Source of the DNA: Parvibaculum sp.
GTDB taxonomy: Bacteria > Pseudomonadota > Alphaproteobacteria > Parvibaculales > Parvibaculaceae
Direction: 5' to 3'
DNA length: 64,000 bases
Assembly: GCF_030651915.1 (NCBI RefSeq)
Contig: NZ_JAUSBV010000004.1
Span: forward strand, 62,001 to 126,000
In this document: piece after piece, positions 28,402 through 44,694 of the stretch
Layout of the letters: the number at the start of each line of letters is the position of its first letter
Position numbering within the stretch: position 1 is the first letter of the stretch
Position numbers and translations under genes: made by a program
Notes under the pieces: generated by a model
The model's database searches: none
Told to the model about the DNA's origin: nothing
What the model saw: the letters and a program-made list of their open reading frames with translations, nothing else

Positions 28402-29853
28402 TCAGAACTGGAAATAGATGAAAGGCGCAACGCCTTCGGGCGCAATCGCCCAGATCAGCCAGACGCCGCCGCCAAGAATAAGCCCGAGCGCCGGCGACGG
28501 CAGCCATTGAAGCCCCTGCGCCAACCAGCGCCCGAGATCGCGCGGCGTGAACTGGAAAACCATGGCAACCGCAATCAATCCGACAAGAAATGGGGTCGCA
28601 TGGAGGCTCGGTTCGGACCAGCGTGCGAAGCCGGCGAGATAGCTGCCGGCCGTCGAGAAACTGTCGGCCCGGAAGAAAATCCAGGCGAAGCAGACCAGAT
28701 GAAACGTCCAGATGACGCCCACAACATGCTGCGCGCCGTGGCCGATGACGCTGAACAAGCCGCCGGGATCGCTGTTCGGCGGCGCGAACTCGTCGAGTTT
28801 GCGCCGCGCATAGCGCTCGACGGCCAGCATCGTGCCGTGAAAGGCACCCCAGAAAACAAAGGTCCAGGCCGCGCCGTGCCAGATACCGCCAAGGAACATG
28901 GTCAGGAAAAGATTGCGATAGGTCCTGGCCTCGCCATGCCGGCTGCCGCCCAGCGGCTTGTAGAGATAGTCGCGCAGCCAGGTCGACAGCGAAATGTGCC
29001 AGCGCCGCCAGAAATCCTGCAGGCTTGAGGCGCGGTAGGGCTGATTGAAATTTTCGAGAAAGCGATAGCCGAGCAGCGCCGCAACGCCGATGGCAATGTC
29101 GCTATAGCCCGAAAAGTCGCAATAGATCTGGATCGCATAGCCATAGACGCCGATCAGGAGATCAAGCGCGCCGACGGCCGTCGGGTCGAAGAAGACCGGG
29201 TCGACAAGCTCGGTCGCCAGGTAATTGGCAATCAGCATTTTCTTGGCAAGACCCGACAGGATCAGCACCGTACCGACGCCGACATGGGCGCGCGTCAAGA
29301 CCGGCGCGCGGTGCAGTTGCGGCAGGAAATCGGCCGCGCGCACAATCGGACCTGCCACCAGCTGCGGAAAGAAGGAGATGTAGAGCATCAGATTGGCAAG
29401 CGAGCGCTCCGGCCGCACATGACCGCGATAGACATCGACGACGTAGGAAATGCCCTGAAAGGTAAAAAAGGAAATGCCGACAGGCAGGATTACCTGCATG
29501 AAAGGCAGATCGCGCTCGAGCCCGGCCATTTCGAGCAGCGTCGCGAGAGAGGTGAGAAAGAAGCCGTAGTATTTGAAGAATCCGAGGATCGAAAGACCGC
29601 CCGCAACGGCACAGGTGACCACGAGCTTGCGCAGCACCGGATGCGCGGTGCGCGCCAGTGCGCGGCCTGCCGCATAATTGATCAGGGTGGAGACCAGCAG
29701 CAGCCCCATGAACCGCCAGTCCCACCAGCCATAGAAGAAATAGCTGGCGGCAAGCAGCACCAGCTTGCGCCAGTGCGGCGTCCAGCGCGCAGCCCAGCTG
29801 ACCGTGAAGGCGATCAGGAAGAAGATCCCGAACTCTATGGTCGGAAATAACAT
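28402..29853 (-). CDS. MBOAT-family membrane-bound O-acyltransferase (AlgI-like)
   Basis: 483 residues from ATG 29853 (the 14-residue upstream extension lacks a good site). About ten or more membrane helices. AlgI/DltB-type signatures: FKYYGFF, LPVGISFFTFQGISYVVDVYRG, FFPQLVAGPIVRA, FSGYSDIAIGVA, FWRRWHISLSTWLRDYLY and the active-site His in LGGIWHGAAW. AlgI-type MBOATs pass acetyl (or another acyl) groups across the inner membrane to SGNH partners that modify alginate, peptidoglycan or exopolysaccharide. Two SGNH genes lie directly upstream on the same strand. A CtrA box lies about 110 bp before the start. Confidence 0.93.
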   Translation of the reverse strand: MLFPTIEFGIFFLIAFTVSWAARWTPHWRKLVLLAASYFFYGWWDWRFMGLLLVSTLINYAAGRALARTAHPVLRKLVVTCAVAGGLSILGFFKYYGFFLTSLATLLEMAGLERDLPFMQVILPVGISFFTFQGISYVVDVYRGHVRPERSLANLMLYISFFPQLVAGPIVRAADFLPQLHRAPVLTRAHVGVGTVLILSGLAKKMLIANYLATELVDPVFFDPTAVGALDLLIGVYGYAIQIYCDFSGYSDIAIGVAALLGYRFLENFNQPYRASSLQDFWRRWHISLSTWLRDYLYKPLGGSRHGEARTYRNLFLTMFLGGIWHGAAWTFVFWGAFHGTMLAVERYARRKLDEFAPPNSDPGGLFSVIGHGAQHVVGVIWTFHLVCFAWIFFRADSFSTAGSYLAGFARWSEPSLHATPFLVGLIAVAMVFQFTPRDLGRWLAQGLQWLPSPALGLILGGGVWLIWAIAPEGVAPFIYFQF

Positions 29854-29962
29854 GCCGCCCCGTCGCTTACGCCCGAATACATCTCGCCCAGCCAACCATC
29901 AGGGGGGCATGACGGAACCAGATGCATCATCCCTGTCCGAGCCGAAAAGCTCAATGATTGCC

Positions 29963-29978
29963 TTAACTTATGGTTAAC
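29963..29978. promoter_or_regulatory. Consensus CtrA box (TTAA-N7-TTAAC)
   Basis: TTAA (29963-29966), seven bases CTTATGG, TTAAC (29974-29978) matches the CtrA cell-cycle regulator site exactly. It overlaps the stop of the SGNH gene and lies about 110 bp upstream of the MBOAT start. Confidence 0.55.
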
Positions 29979-31245
29979 CACGTGGACGGGCGGACGGCCG
30001 GCAGGCAGGTCGCTCCGCCGCGGCACGACCGTCCATCAGCGCGGTCCAGAGCGCCTCACCAAGATGTGCGGCGCCGGCAGACCGCAAATGTACCCGGTCG
30101 GCATACGCAAGAGGCACCTTCGCGATGGCCCAGCGATGCACGCTGCAGCGCCCGCCCATCGCCGCCGAGCCATCCCAGAAAAAGGCACCCTTCTCGGCAG
30201 CGAGTTCCCCCATGACCGCGCGCAGAACCGCGAGCTTTGGCGGTGTCGCCCAACCGTCGCCGCAAGCCTCACCGGTGCCCTTCCGGGCGCCGTCAAAAGG
30301 CCCCAGAAGCGCGAAGGAGGCCTCCGGGGCGGCTGTGCCTATGCGATCCATCAAACCGGCCACGAGCGCCTTGTAGGCGGCCCTGTCGAGGCCGTCGTTG
30401 AAGCCCTCATTGGTGCCATAGCCGAGAATGACGAGATCGGGCTGCAACGCCGCAAGCTGCGCCGCGACGATGCCTTCGTCCCAGCGCGCGGTAATAGCGG
30501 CCGTCGCCGCGACAATGCCGTGGCTGTCATAGCGAACGCCCGGACGGCCCTTGTGCGGCGCAAAGGCCACCGACCAGCCGAGCAGATGAACGGGCCCGTT
30601 GCCGGCCGGCCAGAGCGCGGCGCGGCTGGCGGCGGCCGGAACCGTCAGCCGCACGAGGCCCGGCGCGGCGCGGCGCGTCGACAGGCGGAAGGGCGCCGCA
30701 TCGCCGAGCTTCAGCATGACGGCGCCGGTATCGGGACCGCCGGCAACTTCCAGCGTCACGGCGGCAAAGGGTGCGTCCGCCGCGAGTGTCATCACGGCAT
30801 CATGCCCGTCGGCCGTGGCCCGGAATCCCTGCAACCCGAAAGGTCCTTCGGTCGTCTGCGGCAGGCTTGAGACGACGGACCAGGGCCCGCGCATCGAAAG
30901 CGCAAAGCCGTCCGGCGCGTAGTAACGGAAAGGCACGCCGGGCATCAGCCCGCGGCCCGCATCGTCAAAACGCGCCTGCCAGCGCTGACGAAGCGCACGC
31001 GGCAAATGATCGAGGGAAATATGACTGTCGCCGAGATGAAGCACCGTCAGTGGACGCGTACGGGTTCCGGCTTCGACGGCATCGAGCGCTGCGTGAAAGG
31101 ATTCAAGGCCCACGGGCGCGGGCGGACAATCATCGGCACGGAGCGGGAGCGGCAAGAGGCAAGCACCGACAAGAACCGCCGCCGCAAGGCGAAGGGCATG
31201 AAGGCGGGGCGCGTCAGTTGACGGGGCCGGTCCAGCGCCAGTCAT
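29974..31245 (-). CDS. SGNH/GDSL-type hydrolase-like protein, secreted, AlgJ/AlgX-like role likely
   Basis: 423 residues from ATG 31245; ATG 31278 (with AGGAG 11 nt upstream) is an alternative, and both overlap the end of the DUF459 gene. N-terminal hydrophobic signal segment (AAAVLVGACLLPLPLRA) follows about 25 residues. SGNH landmarks: block I TVLHLGDSHISLDH (Ser in GDSH), block III LVILGYGTNEGFND (GxxN-type), and block V DRVHLRSAGAAHLGEAL (Asp/His). A long beta-rich insert separates blocks I and III. In AlgI-type systems such periplasmic proteins attach the acyl group to the polymer; the target here is unknown. Confidence 0.82.
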   Translation of the reverse strand: MTGAGPAPSTDAPRLHALRLAAAVLVGACLLPLPLRADDCPPAPVGLESFHAALDAVEAGTRTRPLTVLHLGDSHISLDHLPRALRQRWQARFDDAGRGLMPGVPFRYYAPDGFALSMRGPWSVVSSLPQTTEGPFGLQGFRATADGHDAVMTLAADAPFAAVTLEVAGGPDTGAVMLKLGDAAPFRLSTRRAAPGLVRLTVPAAASRAALWPAGNGPVHLLGWSVAFAPHKGRPGVRYDSHGIVAATAAITARWDEGIVAAQLAALQPDLVILGYGTNEGFNDGLDRAAYKALVAGLMDRIGTAAPEASFALLGPFDGARKGTGEACGDGWATPPKLAVLRAVMGELAAEKGAFFWDGSAAMGGRCSVHRWAIAKVPLAYADRVHLRSAGAAHLGEALWTALMDGRAAAERPACRPSARPRG

Positions 31246-32218
31246 CGGATCTGCCGGGACGTCTGCCGGAGGTGTCATAGACAAAGGGCTCCTGCGCGGC
31301 GGATCGAACGGCCGCAGGCACTTCCGGCTCGGAGGGCGCCGTGATTCCGGCGCGCAATTGCGGCACCGCCTCGGCAACACGGACCGCCATGCCACCACTT
31401 TCGATGTCGGCGACGATGGCGTTTGCCATGCGCTCGCCCAGCAATTCGTAGCCCGGCATCGTGAAATGAATGCCGTCCTCGGCACGCAACAGCCGCGTGC
31501 GGCCGAAGCGATCGGCACCATAGGCCGTGTAATCGCCGTTCTCGTCGGTGGCGAGCCCTGCGGTGCGGACGAAGGCGACGCCGTTCATGCGGGCGCGGTT
31601 TTCGAAGATTTCATTGAACTGCGCCATGTCGCCGCCGAAGCGCGGGCTGCGCATCACCGGCAATTCGAGCCAGTAAATACGGGCACCCGTTGCTTGCAGC
31701 GTCGCCGTGAACGCGTCGACGCGGCGTTCGTAAATCTCGCGCCAGCCCGCATCGAAAAGCGCATGGCGCCTGCCGTTTTCGACGATCGGCTGACGATCGT
31801 TGGTACCCATCACGACGACGGCGACGTCGATCCGCGTCTCGGCCGCGATGTCGCGCACGGCCGCGTTCCAGTCGTAATAATCCGCGCGCGAGAAGCCGGT
31901 GGCGACGCGCGATTTCTTGATGACGGTGAACCGCTTGTCCTGGCGCAGCACGTGATAGAGCCCGGCCCAGGTCCCGTCACCCAGCGAGTCGCCCATGACG
32001 ACGACGTTGTAACGCCTTGATTCAGCGGGCTTTTCAGCGACCGGCGCCGGCGTCTCGCTTTCGATCAGGGCCGCGCTCTCGACGCGGACGGGCGTCAGCT
32101 GCAGCGGTTCGGCGGCAGCCGACACCCACCAGAACAGCACCAGCGGCAGCACGAGCGCCGTCAGCCGCACGAGGCGCCAAGTCTGATTTTCCTGCGCTTT
32201 TGCGGCGCGCGCTTGCAT
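31214..32218 (-). CDS. DUF459-type SGNH-fold protein, membrane anchored
   Basis: 334 residues from ATG 32218 (GGGGAATTGG upstream; ATG 32260 possible). N-terminal membrane anchor at about 15-35 (LVRLTALVLPLVLFWWVSAAA), a short linker, then the DUF459/SGNH domain: NVVVMGDSLGDGTWAGL (nucleophile Ser in GDSL), VAVVVMGTNDRQPI (block III Asn) and EDGIHFTMPGYELLGERM (catalytic Asp-x-x-His). First gene of the cluster SGNH-SGNH-MBOAT-small protein. A Pho-box-like sequence lies about 200 bp upstream. Confidence 0.85.
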   Translation of the reverse strand: MQARAAKAQENQTWRLVRLTALVLPLVLFWWVSAAAEPLQLTPVRVESAALIESETPAPVAEKPAESRRYNVVVMGDSLGDGTWAGLYHVLRQDKRFTVIKKSRVATGFSRADYYDWNAAVRDIAAETRIDVAVVVMGTNDRQPIVENGRRHALFDAGWREIYERRVDAFTATLQATGARIYWLELPVMRSPRFGGDMAQFNEIFENRARMNGVAFVRTAGLATDENGDYTAYGADRFGRTRLLRAEDGIHFTMPGYELLGERMANAIVADIESGGMAVRVAEAVPQLRAGITAPSEPEVPAAVRSAAQEPFVYDTSGRRPGRSDDWRWTGPVN

Positions 32219-32416
32219 CCAATTCCCCGAAAACCCCGAAAACGTCCCGGAACAAGCCATTTTGCGCCACCGAGCGGCGGCGCTTCGCCTCTTGTCGTGC
32301 AGAGCTCGTGCCCCGATCCGCGCCTCAAAACGGGACAAAGTCTAGTCGCCGGGGGCACCATTGCCTAGAGCGCGGCACAGCGATGCGACAGCGCGAAAAG
32401 AGCAAAGACCCCCCCT

Positions 32417-32445
32417 CTGTCACAAAACTGTCAAGAAACTGTCAC
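32417..32445 (+). promoter_or_regulatory. Triple Pho box (PhoB-type direct repeats)
   Basis: CTGTCAC, CTGTCAA and CTGTCAC begin at 32417, 32428 and 32439, an exact 11-bp period with 4-nt A-rich spacers. This is the rhizobial/enterobacterial PhoB site pattern (CTGTCAT-N4-CTGTCAT). The direct repeats read to the right, where no plus-strand protein gene follows; to the left the DUF459/MBOAT operon begins 200 bp away. Which transcript it controls is open. Confidence 0.6.
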
Positions 32446-32472
32446 ATATGCGCGACGGGGCCGCGCGGCCGA

Positions 32473-32495
32473 CACTTATCCCCCGGGGACAAGTG
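32473..32495. repeat. 23-bp inverted repeat in the intergenic region
   Basis: CACTTATCCCC and GGGGACAAGTG around a central C form an imperfect palindrome with one A-C mismatch. It lies between the Pho box and the end of the VWA gene. No T tract follows on either strand, so a terminator is doubtful; it could be an operator or the end of a short transcript. Confidence 0.35.
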
Positions 32496-32547
32496 CCACA
32501 AAAAATATTTTATCCCCGGTTTGCGATCTGACGCCGATCGGCGGGCC

Positions 32548-33996
32548 TCAAACGGCGCTGCGCAAGAGCTCCGAGACGACACGCTCGAGGTCTTTCAGCG
32601 AGGCGCAGGTGACCGCCTTGTCGCAATAGGGCTGGAGCCTCCGCATCTCGCTGTCGCCCGAATTCCACATCGTGCGCGGTTCGGGATTGAGCCAGACGAC
32701 GCGGCGCGCGCGGGCATGGATCTTTTTCAGAATGTCGCCGCCCGGATCGCCATAGTTGGAGCGCGCATCGCCGAGGATCAGAACGGTGGTGCGATGATCG
32801 ACATCGTCGAGCGCGATCTCCTCGAAATCCATGAAGGCCTGACCGTAATCGGTCGAGCCGCCGCCGAAATCGCGTAACACGTCGACAAGGGCATCTTCGA
32901 GTTTCTCGCGATCGAAGAGATCGGTCGTCTCGCCGAGCCGGCCCGAAAAGGCGAAGCTGCGCACACCCGGCAGCACTTCCTGCAGCGAATAGAGAAACAT
33001 CAGCAGGAAGCGCGCGACCTGTGCCACCGAGCCCGAAACGTCGCAGATCGCCATCACCTTGGGGCGGTCGATTTTCGTCCGCTTCCAGACCGTGTGGAAC
33101 ATCAGCCCGTCAAATTCGATATTGGCGCGGATGGTACGGCGAATATCGAGCTGGCCGCGCCGCGACACTTTCTTGCGGCGCGAATGCAGCGCGATCAGAC
33201 GCTTGGCCATCTTGCGCACCAGCTCGCGCATGAAGCGCATGTCGCTGCGATCGATATTGGACAGGCGGACCTTGGCCAGCACCTCCTCGCGCAACTGACG
33301 GCCCGAATTAGCGGTAAAGATTTCAAGCTGCTTTTCGACATAGTCGCGGACCTGACCGCGCAGGTCTTCACGCAACTCCGCGAGACGTTCAGCGCCCGGC
33401 GCATTGCCATCGCGCTCGCGCCGTTCGATCTCGTCGTTGAGGCCGTCGAGCCCCATCAGCTCCATGATGCGGCGCGTGAACATGCCGCGCTGGGTGAAGA
33501 GGCGGATGCGATTGAGCTGCGCCCGGCGCGCGCCCTCGGCCAGCGCCATCTGCAGTTCGGCCTGATCGCCGCGTTCAAGCAGCGAGGCCAGATCGGTGGC
33601 AGGCGTCGCCTCGCCCTGCGGCTCGCCGCCCATGCCGCCCGAACCCGGCGCCGACGGACTGCCCGATTGCTGCGGCGCGCCGTCTTCGCCCTCGCCGTCA
33701 TCGCCTTCGCCACCATCGGCCTCGGCGCTGTCGGCGGCGTCCGCGCGGTCGTCATTGGCAGCGGGCGGACGGCTCTTGAACTGGTCGAAGGCGAAGAAGG
33801 CGTCGAAGGTTTCCTCGAAGGCGGCTTTTTCGTCTTCGCTTTTGGCCAGCACCTGCGCCAGTGCATCCCGCAGCGTCCGCCGGTCGTCGAGGCCGACAAG
33901 ACCGACAACGCGGCCGGCATCGATCGATTCCGAGGTCGAGACACGGACATCGGCCGAGCGCAGCGCGCGGATGAAATCGCCGAGGACTTCGGTCAT
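32548..33996 (-). CDS. VWA-domain protein, CoxE-like (partner of MoxR ATPase)
   Basis: 482 residues. N-terminal helical part (FIRALRSADVRVSTSESIDA), an acidic low-complexity stretch (about 80-135: E/D-rich, then SPSAPGSGG), a central helical region, and a C-terminal VWA domain (about 305-480) whose MIDAS metal site begins DVSGSVA; later metal-site Thr/Asp elements are FGGGSTDYGQAF and ILGDARSNYGDPGG. CoxE-like VWA proteins work with MoxR AAA+ ATPases in metal-centre or complex maturation (CO dehydrogenase, methanol dehydrogenase and others). The ATPase gene precedes it by 9 bp. No client enzyme is adjacent. Confidence 0.9.
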   Translation of the reverse strand: MTEVLGDFIRALRSADVRVSTSESIDAGRVVGLVGLDDRRTLRDALAQVLAKSEDEKAAFEETFDAFFAFDQFKSRPPAANDDRADAADSAEADGGEGDDGEGEDGAPQQSGSPSAPGSGGMGGEPQGEATPATDLASLLERGDQAELQMALAEGARRAQLNRIRLFTQRGMFTRRIMELMGLDGLNDEIERRERDGNAPGAERLAELREDLRGQVRDYVEKQLEIFTANSGRQLREEVLAKVRLSNIDRSDMRFMRELVRKMAKRLIALHSRRKKVSRRGQLDIRRTIRANIEFDGLMFHTVWKRTKIDRPKVMAICDVSGSVAQVARFLLMFLYSLQEVLPGVRSFAFSGRLGETTDLFDREKLEDALVDVLRDFGGGSTDYGQAFMDFEEIALDDVDHRTTVLILGDARSNYGDPGGDILKKIHARARRVVWLNPEPRTMWNSGDSEMRRLQPYCDKAVTCASLKDLERVVSELLRSAV

Positions 33997-34005
33997 GGGC
34001 GCCCC

Positions 34006-34950
34006 CTACCCCGCCTGCACGGCCTTCGACACCAGTGCATTGATCTCGCCATCGACATTGTCGATATCGTCCTGGAATTTCAGCAGCACGTTAAGCGTGT
34101 TGCGGACGAGATCGGCGTCGAGTTCGCGGGCATGCAGCAGCACCAGCGTGCGCGCCCAGTCGATGGTTTCGCTGACCGCCGGAAGCTTTTTCAGGTCGAG
34201 CTTGCGCAAGCCCTGCACGAAGGCGACGAGTTGACGCCGCAGCTCCTCTTCGACTTCCGGTACGCGCGAGCGGATGATGCGCTGCTCGAGATCGGTGTCG
34301 GGGAAGGGGATATAGAGATGCAGGCAACGGCGCTTCAGGGCGTCGCCAATTTCGCGCGTATTGTTCGACGTCAGAAAGACGATGGGCGTGGTGCGCGCCT
34401 TGATGGTGCCGAGCTCGGGCACCGAAATCTGATAGTCGGAAAGAAGCTCGAGCAGGAAGGCCTCGAATTCATCGTCCGACTTGTCGATTTCGTCGATCAG
34501 CAGCACCGCCCCGCCCGGCTGCCACAGCGCTTTCAGCAGCGGCCGCGGCTCGAGAAATTCTTCCGAGAAAAACGTGTCGTCGAAATCATGCAGCCGCGTC
34601 ATGGACTCCTTGAGACCGTTCGCGCCGGCCATCAGATCGCCGAGCTTTTCCTTCAGCACCTGGGTGTAGAGAAGCTGCTTGCCGTATTTCCACTCGTAAA
34701 GCGCCTTGGCCTCGTCGAGGCCCTCATAGCATTGCAGGCGGATCAGCGGCTTGCCGACAAGCTCGGCGGTGGCCTTGGCCAGTTCGGTCTTGCCGACGCC
34801 GGGCGGACCTTCGACCAGCAGCGGCTTTTGCAGCTGCTCGGCGAGGAAGATCGAGGTGGCGATATGGGCGTTGCAGATATAGCCGCGTGTCTCGAAGCCC
34901 TTGCGGACGGCTTCGATTTCGGCGACGGCGTTTTTTTTCTCTGTGCTCAA
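34006..34950 (-). CDS. MoxR-family AAA+ ATPase
   Basis: 314 residues from a TTG at 34950; no ATG or good ribosome site is in frame nearby. A GTG at 35112 overlaps the upstream stop (GTGA), but the extra 54 residues are Cys-rich and look non-coding. Walker A EGPPGVGKTELAKA, Walker B AVLLIDEIDKSDDEFEAFLLELL, sensor 1 FLTSNNTREIGDALKRRC. Chaperone-like ATPase with the VWA protein downstream. The second to fourth codons after the TTG include a run of eight A residues (34931-34938 on the plus strand as T8), unusual in this GC-rich sequence. Confidence 0.9.
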   Translation of the reverse strand: MSTEKKNAVAEIEAVRKGFETRGYICNAHIATSIFLAEQLQKPLLVEGPPGVGKTELAKATAELVGKPLIRLQCYEGLDEAKALYEWKYGKQLLYTQVLKEKLGDLMAGANGLKESMTRLHDFDDTFFSEEFLEPRPLLKALWQPGGAVLLIDEIDKSDDEFEAFLLELLSDYQISVPELGTIKARTTPIVFLTSNNTREIGDALKRRCLHLYIPFPDTDLEQRIIRSRVPEVEEELRRQLVAFVQGLRKLDLKKLPAVSETIDWARTLVLLHARELDADLVRNTLNVLLKFQDDIDNVDGEINALVSKAVQAG

Positions 34951-35108
34951 GCGAATTGCGGGGGGCGGAAAGCCACCCCTTCCCTGCGTTAACCTGTTGC
35001 GATTACCACAAGCGTAGCACAGGCGCGCGAGACACGGGCAATGCCAAAGAGGTGACGCCCTGTTCACCGCGCGAGCGGCGTCGAACGGGCCTGCACACGC
35101 CCCGCGGC

Positions 35109-36683
35109 TCACCCAAAGGCCGCGCGCATGACCTTGCCGACGACGGCGGCCTGATCCGCCGCGCCGAGTTTCGACTTGATATGCGCGAAATGCGTGCGGA
35201 CGGTCGCCATCGAAAGGCCCTGCGCGCGCGCGAAGTCGGCCAGGCTCGCGCCTTCGGCAAAGGCGGCCGCAAGCTCCGCCTCGCGCGGCGAAAGGCCGTA
35301 CCAGGCCGAAAGCGCATCGCGGTCGACCCGGCGGCGGCGCCCTTCCTCGAAAATCCGGACAAGCGCGATCGGCGGCGCGCCGGAGCCGTCGGCCGGCGGC
35401 TGGATGCGCTCGCAGCGCAGCAGAAAGACCTCGCCCTTGCCGCTGACGGCGCGCCCGTAGCGGTCGGCGGGTCCGAAATTACTCCCTGTACTGACCAGTC
35501 CGAAGGCCTGATCCATCAGGATCGCAAGCGCCGCCTCGCTCTGCGCGTCGGCCCCGGTGAGCCGTCCGTTCTTGTGGATGAAGACGTCGCCGCTCTCCAG
35601 CACCCGGCGCGCCCGGCGATTGGCGAGAATGACATGGCGGCTGGCGCTCAGCAGCAGCATCGCCTCCGGCGCGTCGGCAAAGAGAAGCGCCAGCCAGTCA
35701 TGCTCGATCTGCTCCTGCGTGACCAGCGCGCCGAATTCGAGCCGCCGTTCCATGAAATGCCAGACCCAGTCGGGATCGTGGTCGCGCGCCCATTCGAAGA
35801 GCTGGTCGAAGCGTTCCTCCATGTGCGGCTGCACGAATTCCGACATCCCGCGCGCATAGGCGTCGCTGAGCTGCTGCTTTTCGGCCGCGCTGCGAACCGT
35901 CGCGCCGGTGCGCCGGCGCACGAACTGGCCAATGCTGGCAAGCGCCGCCGCGGCCTGCGGCGAAAGCGGCTGGAGGCGCTGCCAGGTGTCGGGAAGTCCC
36001 TGCCAGACATGGAGATGCGCCCGCCCGCCGACGCGGCGCAGCCCCTCGACAAGCAGCCGCGCATCGTCGAGCAGAATGTCGTCGGCACCGGCATGGATCA
36101 GCGTTTCGGGCAGGCCCGTTAGCTCGCCAAAGACCGGCGAGGCCAGCGGATGGCGCGGATCGGCGCCCTGCAGATAGTCGATCGTCAGCATGGCCAGAAC
36201 CTCGACGTCGGAGGCAAAGCGACCGGTGCGGATGTTCTCGACATAGGAACCGCCCGACATTGTGAGATCGACCCAGGGCGAGAGCGCGACAAAGCCCGCC
36301 GGCAGCGGCGCACCCTCGCCGCGCAGCGCGATGAGAGCGGCCAGCGCGATACCGGCGCCGGCGGTGTCGCCCATCACGACGAGTTTCGAAGGCGCAACGC
36401 CGCGTGCCAGCAGCGCCTTGTAGGTCGCAACCACATCCTCGATGGCAAGCGGAAAGGGATGTTCGGGCGCCAGCCTGTAATCGACCATCAGCACCCGGCC
36501 GCGCGCATTGCGGGCGATCTGATCGGCAACGACGCTGTGCATCGGCCCCCGGTTCATCGCGAAGGTGCCGCCATAGACATACAGGACCGTCGGGCCCTCG
36601 GCTTCCGCCTCGCCGCACCAGACAGCCGGCCGCGGGAAGCCCGCCGCCTCGGCAAGAGGAATGGTCTCGACTGCGTTTTCCAT
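35109..36683 (-). CDS. Pseudo-esterase (HSL-fold) fused to a LuxR-type transcription regulator
   Basis: 524 residues. Residues 28-260 align end to end with the hormone-sensitive-lipase-family esterase at 14917-15846, but the catalytic residues are changed: oxyanion HGGG is Y37-G-G-T, nucleophile GDSAGG is GDTAGA (Thr107), and catalytic His is Asp232 (GLPDTWQ for GVPHVFQ). Only the acidic residue (Asp202, ADDILLDD) remains. Residues 285-450 form a helical and PAS-like region (AMLLLSASRHVILANRRARRVL), and residues 455-524 a GerE/LuxR DNA-binding domain (LSPREAELAAAFAEGAS, GLSMATVRTHFAHIKSKLG). Best read as a ligand sensor using a dead esterase pocket. Divergent from the OmpA/giant-protein operon. 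Confidence 0.88.
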   Translation of the reverse strand: MENAVETIPLAEAAGFPRPAVWCGEAEAEGPTVLYVYGGTFAMNRGPMHSVVADQIARNARGRVLMVDYRLAPEHPFPLAIEDVVATYKALLARGVAPSKLVVMGDTAGAGIALAALIALRGEGAPLPAGFVALSPWVDLTMSGGSYVENIRTGRFASDVEVLAMLTIDYLQGADPRHPLASPVFGELTGLPETLIHAGADDILLDDARLLVEGLRRVGGRAHLHVWQGLPDTWQRLQPLSPQAAAALASIGQFVRRRTGATVRSAAEKQQLSDAYARGMSEFVQPHMEERFDQLFEWARDHDPDWVWHFMERRLEFGALVTQEQIEHDWLALLFADAPEAMLLLSASRHVILANRRARRVLESGDVFIHKNGRLTGADAQSEAALAILMDQAFGLVSTGSNFGPADRYGRAVSGKGEVFLLRCERIQPPADGSGAPPIALVRIFEEGRRRRVDRDALSAWYGLSPREAELAAAFAEGASLADFARAQGLSMATVRTHFAHIKSKLGAADQAAVVGKVMRAAFG

Positions 36684-36729
36684 CGGCGCCCCGGCCAGCA
36701 GGGACCCGTTGTCCCGCGGCCCTACCCTA

Positions 36730-36745
36730 TCATCACTTTTGATGA
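36730..36745. promoter_or_regulatory. Inverted repeat TCATCA-N4-TGATGA between regulator and operon
   Basis: TCATCA (36730-36735), CTTT, TGATGA (36740-36745) is a perfect 6-bp inverted repeat, 47 bp before the pseudo-esterase/LuxR start and 79 bp before the OmpA-like start. The size suits a dimeric LuxR-type HTH. Candidate operator; a hairpin CCCCTT/AAGGGG (36769-36785) lies beside it. Confidence 0.4.
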
Positions 36746-36823
36746 GGACAGAACAGGCAAACCGGCCTTACCCCTTGTGAAAAGGGGCGGTTTCGCCACC
36801 GGCGCAGCAGGGAGGGCAGACCG

Positions 36824-37879
36824 ATGACATTGCGGAGCGAGGAAAACACCCGGGCGCGGCGCGCAGGGGTCTGGCATCGCAGCGCAGCTCTGGCGGTCAT
36901 TATCGGCCTGGCGCTGGCCGGCACCGCAGCGGCCAACGATGTCGACGGCGCCAGCGACCACCCGCTGCTCAAGCGCTACGAAGACTCCGTCATCATCGGC
37001 TACCACACGCGCGCCTATGACGAATTCGACATTGCAACCGGCCCCCACCGGAGTTTCGCCCCGAAACTCACCGAGGCCCAGACCGTCGAAGGCGCGCATA
37101 CCCGCATTCTCTATGTGGCGCCGGAGGGACGTTCGACGCTTGAGGTGATGCGCAACTACCGGAAGGAACTGGCCGACGCCGGCTTTGAAACCATCTTCGA
37201 ATGCGGCGGCGCGGAATGCGGAAACGGTCCCGATGCGCCCCGCGCCGGCTCCTATCTGATTACCAGCGCCCTGCTGAAGCGCGTGCCGCTGAACAATATG
37301 GGTCAGGTGACGCAATATGCATTTTCGCAGCCGAACGATGTGCGCGCGCTGACGGCAAAGCTCGACCGGCCCGAAGGCGCGATCTATGTGTCGCTCGCCA
37401 TCGCCATCGAAGGTTTCGACCAGTTCCGGATGACGGCGAAGAAACCGCTGGTGTTGCTCGATGTGATCGAGACCGGCGAAATGGAACAGCGCATGGTGCT
37501 GGTCGAGGCGGCCGCCATGGCCAAGGCCATTGCCGAGACCGGCCGCATCGCGCTTTACGGCGTCTATTTCGACACCGACAGCGCGACCATCAAACCGGAA
37601 TCCGGCGCAACGCTTGAAGAGATCGCCAAGCTGCTGACGGATGACGGGAGCCTGAAGCTCTATGTCGTCGGCCATACCGACAGCAAGGGCGCTTACGACC
37701 ACAACATGTCGCTCTCGGCACGCCGCGCCGAAAGCGTCGTTGCGGCATTGACCGGAAAACACGGCATCGCGGCGGCGCGGCTGAAAGCGGCCGGCGTCGG
37801 CTTGCTGGCGCCGGTTGCGACAAATGAAAGCGAAGACGGCCGCGCGCTCAACCGGCGCGTGGAACTGGTGCGGCAATAG
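36824..37879 (+). CDS. OmpA-family outer membrane/peptidoglycan-binding protein with DUF4892-like N-terminal part
   Basis: 351 residues, ATG after AGGGAGGG. Signal peptide ending about residue 37 (ALAVIIGLALAGTAAA). The region 45-215 resembles the DUF4892 type (HPLLKRYEDSVIIGYHTRAYDEF, then a strand-rich stretch with two Cys in ECGGAEC). OmpA C-terminal domain at about 235-350: YGVYFDTDSATIKPES, VVGHTDSKGAYDHNMSLSARRAESV and NRRVELV, with the Asp and Arg that bind diaminopimelate of peptidoglycan. First gene of a three-gene operon; probably anchors or assists the products of the next two genes at the cell envelope (inference). Confidence 0.88.
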   Translation: MTLRSEENTRARRAGVWHRSAALAVIIGLALAGTAAANDVDGASDHPLLKRYEDSVIIGYHTRAYDEFDIATGPHRSFAPKLTEAQTVEGAHTRILYVAPEGRSTLEVMRNYRKELADAGFETIFECGGAECGNGPDAPRAGSYLITSALLKRVPLNNMGQVTQYAFSQPNDVRALTAKLDRPEGAIYVSLAIAIEGFDQFRMTAKKPLVLLDVIETGEMEQRMVLVEAAAMAKAIAETGRIALYGVYFDTDSATIKPESGATLEEIAKLLTDDGSLKLYVVGHTDSKGAYDHNMSLSARRAESVVAALTGKHGIAAARLKAAGVGLLAPVATNESEDGRALNRRVELVRQ

Positions 37880-37900: not shown

Positions 37901-39415
37901 ATGAACCACTCAGTCGCACGATCGCTGACGGCGGGACTGACCCTGACGGCGATGCTGTGCGGACCGGCGCTGGCGCAGACCTTCCAGCAGCCGGCGTTGC
38001 CGGTCCCCGTGATGCCGGGACCGGTGACGGGTGTGCCCAGCGCCGCGCCGGCGCCGGCGCTTACCCTGAGCCAGAACGATCGCCGCCTTCTCGCCGAGCT
38101 GAGCGAAAAAATCGACCGCATGATCGCGGAGGTCGGCGAAGCCCGCGCGCGGACGATGGCGGCATTCGCGGATGGCGGCGCGCAGACCGCGATTGCGGAA
38201 TCTTTCAAGCGGGAAAATGCGCGCATCGTCGGTCCGGTGAAAAGCATCGATGATTCCGCCGCTCTGAACCACCTGCGGGCTTCCGATGCATGGCAGGTGG
38301 CGCGCCCGCCTCGACTGTCCCGAAGCATCGACTACGGTCCGGGCGCCGAAAGGCTCAATGACGAAATGGTGCGGAATATCGCGGAAGTTTTCTACGACCG
38401 GTACATCGCAAGACTGAACGAAACAAAGGACGGCCTCGCCGCGCGGCCGGCAACGATCGCCCAGCAGATCGGCGTGACGCCGCCGTCGATGACCGGGAAA
38501 GTCCGGGACGGCCTCGAAGCCGACCTGAAATATCTGCAGGGCGGACATGACCTCTGGAAGAGCGCCGAAGCGGAACTGAGGGAAACATTTCTGCCGCAAT
38601 ACCAGAAGCGTCTTCTCGACGTTCTCGGGCGCCACGCAAGCTACACCCAGCGCTTCGCGGAGCTGATCGACAGGCGTGAGAACGCCATTTACGACCTGGA
38701 AGTGGATTTCGTCGCCACCCACGCCGAGCGTGAGCGTCAGGTCGCGATTCTGGAAAGCTATCCGCCCGGCAGCGGTCTGGGAAACGACAATATCGCACGC
38801 ATACGCGAACTCGAAGCCGAGATGGAAGTTCTCAACGAGCGCATCAAAGCCGCTGCGATGAACGAGGCAAACGACGCCGAGCGATTTTACAACTGCTCTC
38901 TGTCGCTCGGCACCTGGAGCAACGAACTGGCAGGAAGGCCGCGCGTATCGCCGCCCGTTTCGATTTACTACGCACCACAACACGCCGTCACCCATCTCGG
39001 CGGGCGCGCTTTCTTTCGCGCTTACGAGACGGATGCAATGATGCCGGATCTGAACGAACATCTAAAGATCGACGATCCATGCGGCACGGCGACACCGCCC
39101 GATGAAATTCCGGCGCGGCTTTCACTCGTTGTGCCGCGCTTCGACGCGCCCGAGCCGCCCGAACGGCTCGACGAGGACGATCTCGCGGCGGCGATGCCGA
39201 AATATGTCTTCGAGCCCGTGGACGGCATTCATTTCGGTCATCCCTTCCATGTCGAGGCGCTGTTCGAGGAGGATCGTCCGGGCGACACCTACAGTGTGCG
39301 CATCAACGGCACATATTCGGCCATCGTTCAGCGGACCGAGGAAAATCCGAGACTCTATCGCAGCGCCACGCTGGTCCTGACCCATGCCGGCGTCACCTAT
39401 GGAGGCGGGCGATGA
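37901..39415 (+). CDS. Secreted coiled-coil protein of unknown function
   Basis: 504 residues. Signal peptide residues 1-25 (SLTAGLTLTAMLCGPALAQ). A Pro/Ala-rich linker (about 28-52), then predicted helices and coiled coils (about 55-85, 225-330, for example LEAEMEVLNERIKAAAM), then a beta-rich C-terminal region (about 430-504: HPFHVEALFEEDRPGDTYSV, YRSATLVLTHAGVTY). No family recognised. Starts 21 bp after the OmpA gene and its TGA overlaps the start of the giant gene (ATGA), so the three are one translational unit. Confidence 0.75.
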   Translation: MNHSVARSLTAGLTLTAMLCGPALAQTFQQPALPVPVMPGPVTGVPSAAPAPALTLSQNDRRLLAELSEKIDRMIAEVGEARARTMAAFADGGAQTAIAESFKRENARIVGPVKSIDDSAALNHLRASDAWQVARPPRLSRSIDYGPGAERLNDEMVRNIAEVFYDRYIARLNETKDGLAARPATIAQQIGVTPPSMTGKVRDGLEADLKYLQGGHDLWKSAEAELRETFLPQYQKRLLDVLGRHASYTQRFAELIDRRENAIYDLEVDFVATHAERERQVAILESYPPGSGLGNDNIARIRELEAEMEVLNERIKAAAMNEANDAERFYNCSLSLGTWSNELAGRPRVSPPVSIYYAPQHAVTHLGGRAFFRAYETDAMMPDLNEHLKIDDPCGTATPPDEIPARLSLVVPRFDAPEPPERLDEDDLAAAMPKYVFEPVDGIHFGHPFHVEALFEEDRPGDTYSVRINGTYSAIVQRTEENPRLYRSATLVLTHAGVTYGGGR

Positions 39416-42400
39416 AACTTTTCGGCTTCGACATTCCGCTGCCCGATCTCGGTGCCTTGAAGCTGTCGGCGCTCGGCACGCCGGCGGGCATGGCCGTGGC
39501 CCGTGTCGGCGGCGCGGCGGCGCTGGCCGGGGCGGCCATGCTGGCGATGGGGGCTTTCGGCGACGATGACCCGCCGCCGGTCGAACTCGCCGGGAAATGG
39601 GAGGTCGCCTATCACGACCGCATTCTCGGCCGGGTGCGGGGCAAAGCGACGGTGGCGGACGGCGAAGGCAGCGCCGAAGTCGTGCTGACGCATCCGAAGA
39701 CCAAACAGGAATACACGCTGCGTTCAACCCGCTTCGCCCGTTCGGGCGATACGCTGAATGTGACGCTCGAAGGCCAATGGCCGGGCGCGGAAGGATATGT
39801 CGAGCCGCCACTCGGCGAGGAGCAATCCGTCGGCGCAGGCTCGCCCTATGAATGGCAAGGGCCGGCAAAGATCACGCTGGCCCATGGCGATTCCGAAGAG
39901 ACATTCAAGGTTCTGAAGGACGAGCCCGTCGGCAAGCACAAGGTCGAACTGGAGCTTTACATCGGCGACGAGGCGATGACCGGCGCCTGGAAGCAATGGG
40001 CGAACGCGGTCACGGGCCGCGACGAGGCCGAAGGCGGCCGCATCGCCGATTTCCGCTTTGCGGGCGACGGCACCGGCCGCGCCTACCAGACCGGCATCGA
40101 AACCTGGTATCGCCCGCGCCCGGTCATTCACATCGTGGCGCCGAGCGAGGACCAGCTCGCCATCCGCGAATATCTCGGCGCAAAGTTTCCCTATCCCTGG
40201 AAGGCGGATGGTTCATCGGCCGGCATTCTGATCGATCGCCGCTACCTGCTGGTCGTCGGCGACGAGCTGCCGACCGAGCCCGGCGAAACGGCCGAACTGA
40301 AGTCGCTCGATGCGGATGTCGAATATTTCGTCGAGGCCAAACGCTCGCAATATGGCGACCGCCCGACGGCGCAGCTGATCCTCGACAACGCATTCACACA
40401 TATCCGGCGGAACCTGAAGCAGCAGATGCTGGCCGAGGGCTTCGGCAACGAGGCGCTCCTTCAAGCGACGATGGATGCGATCTACGAGAAGGACTGGATC
40501 CTGATCCGCGCCGAGCTGAAGCGCCCGGCCGAGCCGGGCCGCAAGGGCTTCACGCTGAACGGCGCCGAGGGAAGCTGGGTGTTGCGCTATGGCGACTTCG
40601 TCGCCGATTTCGCGGTGACGCGGCCGGTCGGCGGCGAGACCGAAGGCACCGACCATGTGCTGATGCCTGAGAAAATCTATCTAGAGTTTCGCACGGCGGC
40701 GCCGCTGCTTGCCGATGAGTTGCCGGTTCAGCTCTGGGTCAATGACGACGTGCATGTCTTTGCCGGCAACCGCACGATCATGGCCAAGCGGTTGCCGCGC
40801 ACGAAGGAAGACGACGAGGCGCTGGCCGAACTGCGCGAGGCTGTGCGCTTCGCCGGCGGCGATGTCGAAAACGTCAAGCCGATCCATATTTACCGGACGC
40901 CGCCCATCGGCCTTGTCGACAAGGGACAGGAGGCGTCCGGCGGCGCCATGGACCTGCCGGAGGTCGGCGACGATTGGCGCGTGACGGTGAAGGACGGCGA
41001 CACGATCCGCGGCGTCAGCATCGCCACCGACATTTTGCGCACCGAGCCGTTCCACGCCCAGGCAATGGTCGTCAATTCGCCGGCCGAGATTGTGCGGCAC
41101 ACGACGCCGGGCCTCGGCGCGGCGCAGAACCTGACATGGACGCGCGCCGTGATGGAAGCGGCACGTTGCACCGGAGCGCCGATCGACACGCCTGTCGATT
41201 TCGATGCGCTGGCCCGGCGCAAGGCGACAACATTCAAAAGCAAGGTCTATCTCGCAGACGCGGCAAAGCGCGCCACGGGCAAGGAGCTTCTTGGCGCGAT
41301 CCCCGGTGAGGGGTGGCTTGAGGGCAGCGCCCGGCTCGGCCGCGACGCCGCCGCCGGCGTCATCCAGAGCCCGACCGCCTTCAGCGGCGGCGAAACCTAT
41401 TCGCTCGACATGCTGGTCGGCGATCACGCCGCCATGCTGATCCTGCGCGAAGCCTTCATCGAAATGATGACGCGCCAGATCGAGGAAGTCAGCGCAATCC
41501 GCTCGGACGCCGCCATATACGGGTTCCGCGCCAGCGCCGAAATCCCCTCGTCCTATGCGCCGAACCATCCCTTCTCGACGATCGACGTCAAAGCGCCGAA
41601 CGGCAAGACCGTCTCCTTCAGCTTCAGCTATGCAAGCGACGATCTGCTGAAACAGGAACTCGGCCTCGACGCGGCCGCCGCCGAGGCATGGCGCCTCGAC
41701 GCGACGCGGCAGATGCTGCGCGAATATCTGGCCTCGCTGCGCGCCGCGCTTGGCGTGGCGCAGGGGATCAAGACCTGCGGCGAGCACCAGAAACTGGTCG
41801 AGCTGACCGGGCGCGGCTTTGCCGCCGTCAATCGCTATGCGCGCAGCCGGTTGATGACCGCGCAATCCATTCGCGGCGAACGCGACGATGCCTGGAAGGC
41901 CGACCGCGTGGCGCGGGCCTGGATGGCGGGCGTGCCGGTCTTTGCCGAGGCGCTGGCCGATCAGCAATCGCTTTCGGCGCAGGACACGAAAGTCCTCGTT
42001 ATTGCCGTGACCATCGGCACATCGGCCGCGGCGGCGGGCGGCGGTCTCCTCGGCTGGGCAGTCGCTTACGAAGCGCTTTTCTTCAGCACCGTGGCGACGA
42101 TGGCCGATGTCGCCAATGCCGCCCATGTGCTCTACACCGAGATCGGCCACAAGCTGAACACCACGGCGGAAGTCCGCTTCGCGCGCGGCGCCCATGCCGT
42201 ACTCGGCGATGCGCGTCTCGAACAGGCGCTCGCCGAAGACCGCCATTGGGCGGAAATTTCGGCCGGGCTCTATCTCGACGTGCTGCCGAGCGTCGCTTTC
42301 AACTCGGGCGCCGATTTCCTCAAGGGGTTGAAGGATATTGGCGGGACTTCGGCGGCCGTCTATCGCGGCGGCAAGCGCCTTGTCTCGCAGGCACGCTCCA

Positions 42401-44694
42401 TCGAACGCGGGCGCAAACTGCTGGGCGAAGTGAGCATCGGCACCGGCGTCGGCCAGGCCGCGCCGCCGAAACTGGTGCAGCTCGAACCACCGAAAGTTCC
42501 GGCCGAGGATTTTGCGAAGAACTTTCCCGACGGCAAGGATGTGCAGCGCGCCTCGAACCTTGAACTCGACGATCTGATCGATCCGGCCAATCCCGGCAAG
42601 CTGCCGGATATCGAAGACCTGACCAAGACGCAGGCCACGCCGCCATCGCAGCCGCGCGGGCCGCCGGACCCTGCGACCGGCAGCGGCGACGACACAGTTC
42701 GACTGGGCACACCGGCCACGCCCGCGCCGCGCAGCACCAGCGCCGACGACACGATCCGCGTCGGCCAGCCCGGCGATGGCGCATCGCCGGCCACGGGCGC
42801 CGAGCCTCAGCGGCTTCCAGAAGCCGAGGCCGCCAGCGCCAACGCCGATCAACTCGACCGTCTGCGCCGCGATGCCGACGCCGCCTATGAACGCTCGCAG
42901 CAGCTTGCGCAGGAAGCTTTCGCGCAGAACCGCGCGATCGATGCCGCGGAAGGCAACGAACTTCTGAAGGGTGCCCACACGGCGGCGGCACAGGAGGTTG
43001 TGGAAACCGCGGTCGATCAGGCGCGCCGCGCCGGCCTGACCGAATCCGAAATTCACGCGATCATTTCAAAATACGATGTGACGAGCGGGCGCGGCGACCT
43101 GATGCGCTTTGCGCTGGTCGACGAGTTGCAGCGCGTGTCCGTCCAGCGTCTCGGTTATGAACTGGTCGACGAATTCTACGCGCTGGACGTGATGGAGCTG
43201 GTAACGCGGAGCTATACCGGCGCAGCGACACCGGCGGATCTCGCGCGGCTGAAAGTCTGGATCGACCGCGCCGCCGATGCCGGCGAGGATTTCTTCTCGC
43301 GTCTTCAGCGGCAGGGCACCTATACCGATCTCGACGGCTTCGAGCATCTTGCCGATGCCGACGGCATTGCCAGCTTGCGGAAGCTCGCCGCCGACAACGA
43401 CCTGCTGCCGATGGGCCTGCTCGAAACCCAGGCGCTGACGGCGAGCGAGCGGCTGGCCGAAAGCTCGATCGGCAAGGTCCGCAACCTGCCCGAGCCGCAG
43501 CGCGTCGACGTGGCCAACGCGATCTTCGATGCGCGCCGCCTCGCCGCCGAGGCGGGCCTCAAGGCGCTTGACGCGACCGAGAAAGCGGCGCTGCGCATCG
43601 CCGACGGGGTCGTCGGCGATGCCGGCGGTGTGCCGGCCTGGGCACGCGGCCTCGACAGGACGTCCTACGAAAAGATCGCGCATCTGGGCGGCCGGGCGGA
43701 TTTTCAGAAACTGATCGAAGCCGATCCGTCGATCCTGCGCCAGGCCGCTGCCGACCCCGATGTTCGCGCGGTGATCGAATTGCAGCCCTATCGCGATCCG
43801 GCCGAATTCCAGAAGGCGCTGGCCAACGAACGCAAACGCGTCAAGCGCCCGCTGCCCGGCGCCTTCGACGAGGCGGCCGAGGACCACTGGCTGCCCAAAC
43901 AGGTGATGAAGGACGGCAAGGAGCAACCGGTCGCCTTCAGGCATGAAGTCCTGGAAGGCGACGGCAAGAAATTCAGCACCGACAAGTTCCTCAATGGCGG
44001 CGACGACGTCGCCGTCGTCGAGCGCGAGCTCGGCCTTGCCGAGCTGCCGGAATTTGCCGGTTCGAAACAGATGACCTGGTCCTATATGGAAGCCAAGCTG
44101 CTGCCGGACTTCTTCGACAATGTCAAAGTGCCGATGATCGGCGAGCGCGGAACAAGTTCGGCGGCGATGCTCAACATGCGCGCCTTCCACAATCTCGACA
44201 TCCCCTATGGCGACCCGTCGCTGAAGCTGATCAAGATGTCGAATGTCGAGAATGCCAATACCAGCGTTCAGATCGCCTGGATGAAACGCGTCTATGGCGC
44301 CGACTGGACCAAATATCTGCCCAACACCCATTCGGTGCGCTATGCCGAGTCGGCGCTCAACCAGGCCGGCTTCCGCATCAAGGAAGTGAGGCTGGGCGGC
44401 GAACGGCCGCTGCGGATGAATGCGCGCGGCATGGTGGAAGGCAATTTCTTCAAGGCCAAGGAATCGCCGATGGAGTTCCTCGCCCGCTATGGCGTCTCGC
44501 CCAATGAGGCGATCGAGACCGGCCACGATATCTATATCGTCGTCGAGCCCTTCGGCGCCGCGGCGCCGCGCTCCGCATCGGCCGCACCCTTGCGCCGGAA
44601 GCGGCGGGCCCTGTCCGGCTGGCGCCCGGCGCGCCGCCGGGGACCGGTCAGGGCCGCTGACGCTATGCCCGGACGATCACAGGCAGCTCGGTGA
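39412..44694 (+). CDS. Giant 1760-residue multidomain protein of unknown function
   Basis: ATG overlaps the preceding stop (ATGA). Visible parts: short N-terminus with a hydrophobic helix (about 24-47), strand-rich region (about 55-430), mixed region to about 850, two hydrophobic helices (about 861-900: VLVIAVTIGTSAAAAGGGLL, then AYEALFFSTVATM), a Pro-rich linker (about 1075-1130) with a repeated DDT(V/I)R(L/V)G (Thr1095, Thr1114), coiled coil (about 1133-1200), helical region, and a C-terminal region (about 1463-1715) that looks like a separate folded domain, ending in an Arg/Ala-rich tail of 45 residues. Layout recalls large exported effectors or polymorphic toxins, but I recognise no toxin motif and see no immunity gene. 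Its 3' end overlaps the P450 gene by 32 bp antisense. Confidence 0.8.
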   Translation: MKLFGFDIPLPDLGALKLSALGTPAGMAVARVGGAAALAGAAMLAMGAFGDDDPPPVELAGKWEVAYHDRILGRVRGKATVADGEGSAEVVLTHPKTKQEYTLRSTRFARSGDTLNVTLEGQWPGAEGYVEPPLGEEQSVGAGSPYEWQGPAKITLAHGDSEETFKVLKDEPVGKHKVELELYIGDEAMTGAWKQWANAVTGRDEAEGGRIADFRFAGDGTGRAYQTGIETWYRPRPVIHIVAPSEDQLAIREYLGAKFPYPWKADGSSAGILIDRRYLLVVGDELPTEPGETAELKSLDADVEYFVEAKRSQYGDRPTAQLILDNAFTHIRRNLKQQMLAEGFGNEALLQATMDAIYEKDWILIRAELKRPAEPGRKGFTLNGAEGSWVLRYGDFVADFAVTRPVGGETEGTDHVLMPEKIYLEFRTAAPLLADELPVQLWVNDDVHVFAGNRTIMAKRLPRTKEDDEALAELREAVRFAGGDVENVKPIHIYRTPPIGLVDKGQEASGGAMDLPEVGDDWRVTVKDGDTIRGVSIATDILRTEPFHAQAMVVNSPAEIVRHTTPGLGAAQNLTWTRAVMEAARCTGAPIDTPVDFDALARRKATTFKSKVYLADAAKRATGKELLGAIPGEGWLEGSARLGRDAAAGVIQSPTAFSGGETYSLDMLVGDHAAMLILREAFIEMMTRQIEEVSAIRSDAAIYGFRASAEIPSSYAPNHPFSTIDVKAPNGKTVSFSFSYASDDLLKQELGLDAAAAEAWRLDATRQMLREYLASLRAALGVAQGIKTCGEHQKLVELTGRGFAAVNRYARSRLMTAQSIRGERDDAWKADRVARAWMAGVPVFAEALADQQSLSAQDTKVLVIAVTIGTSAAAAGGGLLGWAVAYEALFFSTVATMADVANAAHVLYTEIGHKLNTTAEVRFARGAHAVLGDARLEQALAEDRHWAEISAGLYLDVLPSVAFNSGADFLKGLKDIGGTSAAVYRGGKRLVSQARSIERGRKLLGEVSIGTGVGQAAPPKLVQLEPPKVPAEDFAKNFPDGKDVQRASNLELDDLIDPANPGKLPDIEDLTKTQATPPSQPRGPPDPATGSGDDTVRLGTPATPAPRSTSADDTIRVGQPGDGASPATGAEPQRLPEAEAASANADQLDRLRRDADAAYERSQQLAQEAFAQNRAIDAAEGNELLKGAHTAAAQEVVETAVDQARRAGLTESEIHAIISKYDVTSGRGDLMRFALVDELQRVSVQRLGYELVDEFYALDVMELVTRSYTGAATPADLARLKVWIDRAADAGEDFFSRLQRQGTYTDLDGFEHLADADGIASLRKLAADNDLLPMGLLETQALTASERLAESSIGKVRNLPEPQRVDVANAIFDARRLAAEAGLKALDATEKAALRIADGVVGDAGGVPAWARGLDRTSYEKIAHLGGRADFQKLIEADPSILRQAAADPDVRAVIELQPYRDPAEFQKALANERKRVKRPLPGAFDEAAEDHWLPKQVMKDGKEQPVAFRHEVLEGDGKKFSTDKFLNGGDDVAVVERELGLAELPEFAGSKQMTWSYMEAKLLPDFFDNVKVPMIGERGTSSAAMLNMRAFHNLDIPYGDPSLKLIKMSNVENANTSVQIAWMKRVYGADWTKYLPNTHSVRYAESALNQAGFRIKEVRLGGERPLRMNARGMVEGNFFKAKESPMEFLARYGVSPNEAIETGHDIYIVVEPFGAAAPRSASAAPLRRKRRALSGWRPARRRGPVRAADAMPGRSQAAR

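Follow-up and report, generated by a model that had tools for sequence, protein, structure and literature searches.

A predicted LuxR-type regulator with a non-catalytic HSL-type input domain, encoded beside a divergent outer-membrane protein gene in Parvibaculum and related genera

An origin from HSLs, accompanied by loss of the active-site His, has been suggested for the plant hormone receptor GID1, whose ligand is described as contacting the nucleophilic Ser and the Asp while helices form a lid (PMC3531792). In the window analysed here, a stretch of 64,000 nucleotides from a Parvibaculum contig, the original prediction had recognized an esterase-fold pseudoenzyme fused to a LuxR DNA-binding domain and had compared it with GID1. 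The comparison stood for HSL descent and the loss of the catalytic His, so that the likeness extends over an HSL-family fold, a lost His and a putative signalling role. It did not stand for the ligand-contacting Ser, which GID1 retains and which is Thr in 23 of 23 fused copies, nor probably for the lid, the N-terminal stretch of which is short or absent in the fused protein. A further difference from GID1 is that the HSL domain is fused here to a DNA-binding domain. The palindrome, the divergent outer-membrane gene and the split esterase-LuxR modules described below go beyond what the original prediction had recognized.

RsbQ of Bacillus subtilis is an alpha/beta hydrolase that works with a PAS-containing signalling protein, the phosphatase RsbP. 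VqmA of Vibrio cholerae consists of PAS plus HTH and is not known to have a hydrolase domain, and MalT of Escherichia coli has a LuxR-type HTH. RsbQ differs from the protein studied here in that it is the outgroup of the D14/KAI2 line (PMC3531792) and is not an HSL. Aes, which has acetyl esterase activity, interacts directly with MalT and thereby inhibits it (PMC10427625), and this pair resembles the present case in that an esterase acts on a transcription regulator. However, Aes is separate and active and MalT is a STAND ATPase, whereas here the esterase-like domain is fused, its catalytic residues are lost and no ATPase was found in the fused protein. In Pseudomonas aeruginosa, RhlR is stabilised by the thioesterase PqsE, reportedly without a need for the thioesterase activity (PMC9715718), a likeness in that an esterase-type enzyme supports a LuxR-type regulator with catalysis reported as dispensable. 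PqsE is nevertheless a separate protein of the metal-dependent beta-lactamase type, and RhlR binds a homoserine lactone.

The fused gene (35109-36683, minus strand) starts with ATG and encodes 524 residues comprising an HSL-type pseudoesterase, a helical linker, a PAS-like region and a LuxR HTH. Pfam Abhydrolase_3 (PF07859) matched residues 33-231 (35991-36587, minus strand) with 154.4 bits against a cut-off of 25, a match that spans the fold core and places the domain in the HSL family by profile, and the LuxR/GerE HTH (PF00196) matched residues 464-515 (35139-35294, minus strand) with 31.3 bits against a cut-off of 23.5. The proposed fusion of an esterase-fold domain to a LuxR HTH was thus borne out with both domains over cut-off, as was the proposed alignment without large gaps to the HSL esterase encoded in the window at 14917-15846: in BLASTP, residues 19-268 aligned at 45% identity with 5 gap positions in 253 columns. 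Among solved structures, the HSL esterase E40 was the nearest in sequence (E 8e-57), and a low-confidence full-length model built on a shallow alignment (pLDDT 56.5) matched HSL esterases. The NCBIfam 'acetyl esterase' model PRK10162, which we take to be that of Aes, gave E 6e-17 and 61.5 bits, under its cut-off of 389. With 36 residues before the oxyanion motif, where the window esterase has 77, the fused protein has a short N-terminal cap stretch or lacks it. A longer N-terminus with a cap is unlikely: none of the 28 further open codons upstream of the ATG is an ATG, GTG or TTG, and the palindrome described below sits there.

The region between the two Pfam domains was divided on the secondary structure of low-confidence models into a helical linker (residues 261-335; 35679-35903, minus strand) and a PAS-like region (residues ~336-450; 35334-35678, minus strand). 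The original prediction of a PAS-like linker found moderate support from fold comparison and little from sequence. A low-confidence model of the C-terminal half, likewise from a shallow alignment (pLDDT 60.9), gave Z 9.3-9.7 against four PAS or PAS-like chains and aligned with VqmA at Z 10.6 over 168 residues with an rmsd of 12.6, but PAS_8 matched the linker at E 0.15, below the Pfam cut-off. The HTH in the same model (pLDDT 60.9) matched the C-terminal domain of VraR at Z 11.0. A Protoglobin match at residues 240-343 (E 0.075) was also below the Pfam cut-off. Neither an autoinducer-binding domain nor a receiver domain was matched by Pfam at E <= 1 in the fused protein, and the absence of these domains ruled out an autoinducer LuxR or a NarL/FixJ response regulator.

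At the four key sites of the esterase, the alignment agreed with what had been claimed, namely YGGT, Thr107, Asp232 and a retained acid. The HGGG oxyanion motif is replaced by Y37-G38-G39-T40 (36564-36575, minus strand), with Y37 and T40 in 23 of 23 copies and YVGT in one of them. The nucleophile Ser is replaced by Thr107 (36363-36365, minus strand) in every copy, and the catalytic His by Asp232 (35988-35990, minus strand), with His in none of the 23. The acid is Asp202, opposite Glu in the window esterase, and is Asp or Glu throughout (23/23). As to whether the Thr and Asp replacements are conserved in homologues, a check proposed with the original prediction, this was so for Thr107 but for Asp232 in just 9 copies, the others having Glu (10), Ser (3) or Thr (1). 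The acid and an Asp or Glu at position 232 are both present in 19 of the 23 copies and, as a speculation, might bind a cationic group. Two conditions that could have undone the prediction were also examined. Degeneration private to the window copy was ruled out, as no full-length copy of the 23 retains Ser or His, and an assembly error or frameshift as the origin of the fusion was ruled out by its recurrence in 14 genomes. Judged by its motifs, the fused protein is an HSL member by descent and predicted not to be an enzyme, its esterase activity having presumably been lost.

The 23 full-length fused copies were found in 14 genomes of three genera, with 6 copies in the genus of the window, 14 in genus g3 (types A, B and C with 5, 4 and 5 copies) and 3 in genus g125. 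They were counted from a residue table of 24 fused rows, in which WIN_FUS and L063 are one gene; L131 was left out as a copy of L044. At the family level (40 genomes, the same set as in the order-level search), full-length copies were present in 11 genomes, corresponding to 6 of 27 in the genus of the window and 5 of 7 in g3, and the class sample of 385 genomes added three genomes of g125, which belongs to another family. A match was found in the own genome alone in the phylum sample (398 genomes); in both the class and phylum searches, the best 6 first-look candidates per genome were scored. In a plasmid collection, 449 records had matches and none covered 80% of the query. Four related records contained the full-length gene at 79-94% identity over the whole protein and a fifth a 102-residue end; records overlapping the genomes were not double-counted, and G033, with the last 102 residues at a contig edge, was left out of the full-length count. 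As scoring covered the best candidates of each genome in a drawn sample of genomes, these counts stop short of proving rarity. Three copies stand in tandem in G003, G006 and G009 and two in G007, and G008 has three copies, each on its own contig.

A gene for an outer-membrane protein is divergent from the fused gene at 22 of the 23 copies, comprising 6 OmpA/DUF4892 proteins, 14 autotransporters by Pfam and 2 genes cut by contig ends. In the window, this neighbour (36824-37879, plus strand) is the likely target, and its product matched OmpA with 70.3 bits and DUF4892 with 31.3 bits, both above the Pfam cut-off. An orthologue with 75-100% identity adjoins the fused gene in all six genomes of the window's genus that have a full-length copy, while the best other full-length match was 40% and the C-terminal OmpA part alone reached up to 47%. 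An autotransporter beta-domain protein is divergent at 14 of 14 copies in g3, where Pfam detected it in 12; at L049 and L050 the contig ends within the gene, which is similar in sequence. In g125, an autotransporter is divergent at two of three copies, and in G347 (L077) the palindrome is present with no autotransporter within the 17 kb examined. Downstream of the OmpA/DUF4892 gene, 37901-44694 encodes proteins of 504 and 1760 residues, the products of 37901-39415 and 39412-44694, neither of which had a Pfam match at E 0.01. A sigma-70-type promoter was not matched in 36600-36900, and the promoter/terminator scan was empty.

On the other side, the regulator is followed by genes for a MoxR-like AAA ATPase and a CoxE/VWA-like protein (32548-35112, minus strand; AAA_5 match), which occur in the same order after the type C copies. 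The common order in the window and at g3 type C copies includes MoxR-like, CoxE-like, two SGNH-type hydrolase and MBOAT-like genes. The MoxR-like protein and one SGNH protein of the window were named by Pfam; the remaining names (CoxE-like, MBOAT-like and the other SGNH) are putative and based on motifs. The whole run (28402-35112) neighbours the regulator in two genera and perhaps serves the acylation of an envelope polymer.

Besides the fused copies, 13 split modules (6 SPLIT1 and 7 SPLIT2) were found in relatives and, beyond the window itself, in the genome it comes from. In these, an HSL esterase gene is followed by a LuxR gene of ~130-160 residues, and a barrel-like gene is divergent at 13 of 13. 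The small LuxR was detected automatically in 12 modules, and matching sequence is also present at the last one, L124. The HSL motifs are HSGS, GDSAGG and PHGW in SPLIT1 (6 loci) and HGGS, ADSAGG and PHVW or PHGW in SPLIT2 (7 loci), with Ser and His kept in both. The key sites read HGGG, Ser and His in canonical HSLs and HSGS or HGGS with Ser and His kept in split HSLs, and in the fused copies oxyanion motif, nucleophile and His are all replaced. Three of the 13 barrel-like proteins were searched against Pfam and had no match at E 0.1; from signal-like N-termini and C-termini ending in F, we read the proteins of this group as putative barrels. One of the small LuxR proteins shares 43% identity over 60 residues with the HTH of the fused C-terminal half, and its N-terminal part weakly resembles the first part of the helical linker (E 2e-6 in a single pairwise BLASTP), which points to an insertion or a loss of the PAS-like region.

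When a tree was built with 33 other, canonical HSL rows, which come from 8 genomes among the matches listed, the fused, SPLIT1 and SPLIT2 sequences separated together with a support of 100/99 and each formed one group, SPLIT1 pairing with SPLIT2 at 90/73. The joint grouping was recovered at 98/93 in a smaller tree with 7 canonical rows, and 22 fused rows entered the trees after duplicate removal. Given the position of SPLIT1 plus SPLIT2, the split modules are sisters of the fused copies and not shown ancestors. A split-LuxR profile searched at E <= 1e-14 against the 385 class genomes, with the best 10 candidates per genome, matched at least 14 places, which were 3 split LuxRs, 10 fused copies and 1 other LuxR beside a barrel-like gene. 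That other LuxR lies at L121; at L121:9798-12347 and L127:614-3172, a 373-residue LuxR without an HSL gene immediately precedes a barrel-like gene of the same strand. The split module of the own genome (L056:2699-5539; G000:C2, ~22.7-25.5 kb) has HSL and LuxR genes overlapping by 8 nt, a divergent barrel-like gene and a downstream gene that is putatively sulfatase-like by its motif. At L122 (G008:C111), two split modules are arranged in tandem, each with its own barrel-like gene.

The intergenic region between the regulator and the OmpA/DUF4892 gene contains a candidate operator, TCATCA-N4-TGATGA (TCATCACTTTTGATGA on the plus strand; 36730-36745), located 46 nt upstream of the start of the regulator gene and 78 nt upstream of that of the OmpA gene, start codons being longest-ORF calls throughout. 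This palindrome is upstream of the fused gene at 19 of the 23 copies, which do not count as 19 independent events because the loci are related by descent, and the four type B copies all have CATCACC-N6-GGTGATG instead. From base composition, about 1e-6 to 1e-5 occurrences are expected per locus (200 nt), and with up to one mismatch one site was found in the window where 0.10 was expected. SPLIT1 loci have palindromes such as ATCACC-AATTTT-GGTGAT (6/6, three of them less perfect) and SPLIT2 loci TCATACA-N3-GTATGA (6/7), the seventh reading CTACAATTGTAG; the type B and split-module patterns were fitted after inspection. At type B of G009 (L047) and at several split loci, the palindrome overlaps the called start, and a later start must be assumed for it to be intergenic there.

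Across the 40 genomes, 56 sites of the palindrome were counted, of which 16 were at fused-gene loci, 1 at a fourth autotransporter gene and 39 elsewhere, including 23 in genomes without a fused gene. The palindrome by itself is not specific and, with 39 background sites, does not lend itself to defining a genome-wide regulon. A control with the reversed pattern gave 2 sites and is unfair as that pattern contains TAG. The fourth autotransporter gene (L131:3617-5515, G006) has the palindrome in front and no adjoining regulator gene, and a site in G008:C117 overlaps a called ORF of 128 aa. In the HTH, the residue before TVR is Asn in the 4 type B copies, in 4 of 4 SPLIT1 and in 3 of 6 aligned SPLIT2 sequences, whereas the remaining 19 fused copies have Ala (9), Thr (8) or Pro (2) there; the type B operator nearly equals the SPLIT1 operator of L132. 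The identity of the residue preceding TVR seems to follow the form of the operator, which gives a lead on specificity.

We consider it probable that the fused protein is a one-component regulator whose HSL input domain is non-catalytic and which acts both at its own promoter and on the outer-membrane gene. The HSL-type domain would no longer be an enzyme and would serve for signal input, sensing a signal either in its old pocket or through contact, and the helical linker and PAS-like region would relay the state of this domain to the LuxR-type HTH. The HTH would bind, as a dimer, to TCATCA-N4-TGATGA in the shared promoter region, and the regulator would control its own gene and the divergent outer-membrane gene, which is OmpA/DUF4892 here and an autotransporter gene in related genera. 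DNA binding at the palindrome, the dimer form, the direction of regulation and the targets are all predictions at this stage. The fused regulator would share an ancestor with the two-gene HSL esterase-LuxR modules.

The role of the HSL domain admits several readings. A relic, in which an esterase gene became fused to a regulator and the domain has been drifting without function, would account for the lost catalytic residues but is scarcely credible, with the same replacements in three genera, two or three paralogues retained in each of five g3 genomes, and dN/dS for residues 28-260 of 0.013-0.135 in 9 of 10 pairs, the tenth being saturated and some of the ratios being rough as dS is high (up to 2.4). 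The HSL-domain ratio was lower than that of the PAS-like region in 9 of 9 computable pairs and lower than that of the HTH in 7 of 9; the dN/dS work and alignment A1 include 19 of the 23 fused copies. That the pseudoesterase domain is conserved and under purifying selection is supported by these comparisons. Slow catalysis with Thr107 as nucleophile, by which the domain would process its signal as discussed for DAD2/D14, would make use of the hydroxyl group of an invariant residue and has a precedent in DAD2, which hydrolyses its ligand in a step thought to be integral to signalling (PMC3531792). With His absent from 23 of 23 copies and two positions of the oxyanion motif changed in all of them, we regard it as very improbable.

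A domain that binds no small ligand, and serves as a structural, dimerising or chaperone-like part or as a partner-docking surface keeping the LuxR part soluble or inactive, is a more serious contender, although we consider it unlikely. It agrees with the short or absent N-terminal cap stretch and with the enzymes known to contact transcription regulators, PqsE with RhlR (PMC9715718) and Aes with MalT (PMC10427625), and these precedents keep a contact-only role alive. On the other hand, of twelve positions that are fixed (>=95%) in the fused copies and rare among 20 other HSLs, 7 fall in the loops that carry the oxyanion motif, the nucleophile or the His (p 1e-4), a clustering that persists without the three class-defining positions (p 0.012), and every copy has Asp or Glu as the acid. 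The clustering in the old active-site loops and the conserved acid position favour a used pocket over a scaffold. Provided that the protein is a regulator, the balance leans slightly towards a ligand bound in the old active-site pocket.

In the open-access literature we came across neither an HSL-LuxR fusion nor the split modules, most subscription papers lying outside the search; in the available part of PMC3466318, neither 'hydrolase' nor 'esterase' occurs at the start of a word. A wider scenario, on balance rather doubtful, is that an HSL esterase became a transcription-coupled receptor independently of plants, with the canonical and split HSLs surviving as less altered relatives, and that every module responds to a cell-surface or ester-bearing ligand by adjusting expression of the neighbouring outer-membrane protein via its own palindrome.

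The change from enzyme to receptor has been argued mostly from plant GID1 and D14/KAI2. Should the fused protein act as a sensor, it would provide a bacterial counterpart to a plant hormone receptor derived from the same enzyme family, in a compact bacterial family where catalytically stripped fused copies occur along with split relatives keeping Ser and His and with candidate DNA sites and targets. With this fused and split family and its candidate sites and targets, simple genetics would allow the loss of catalysis and the gain of sensing to be tested. We propose the HSL-type domain as a new input domain of LuxR-type regulators, together with a circuit that may control outer-membrane proteins in a small group of environmental bacteria.
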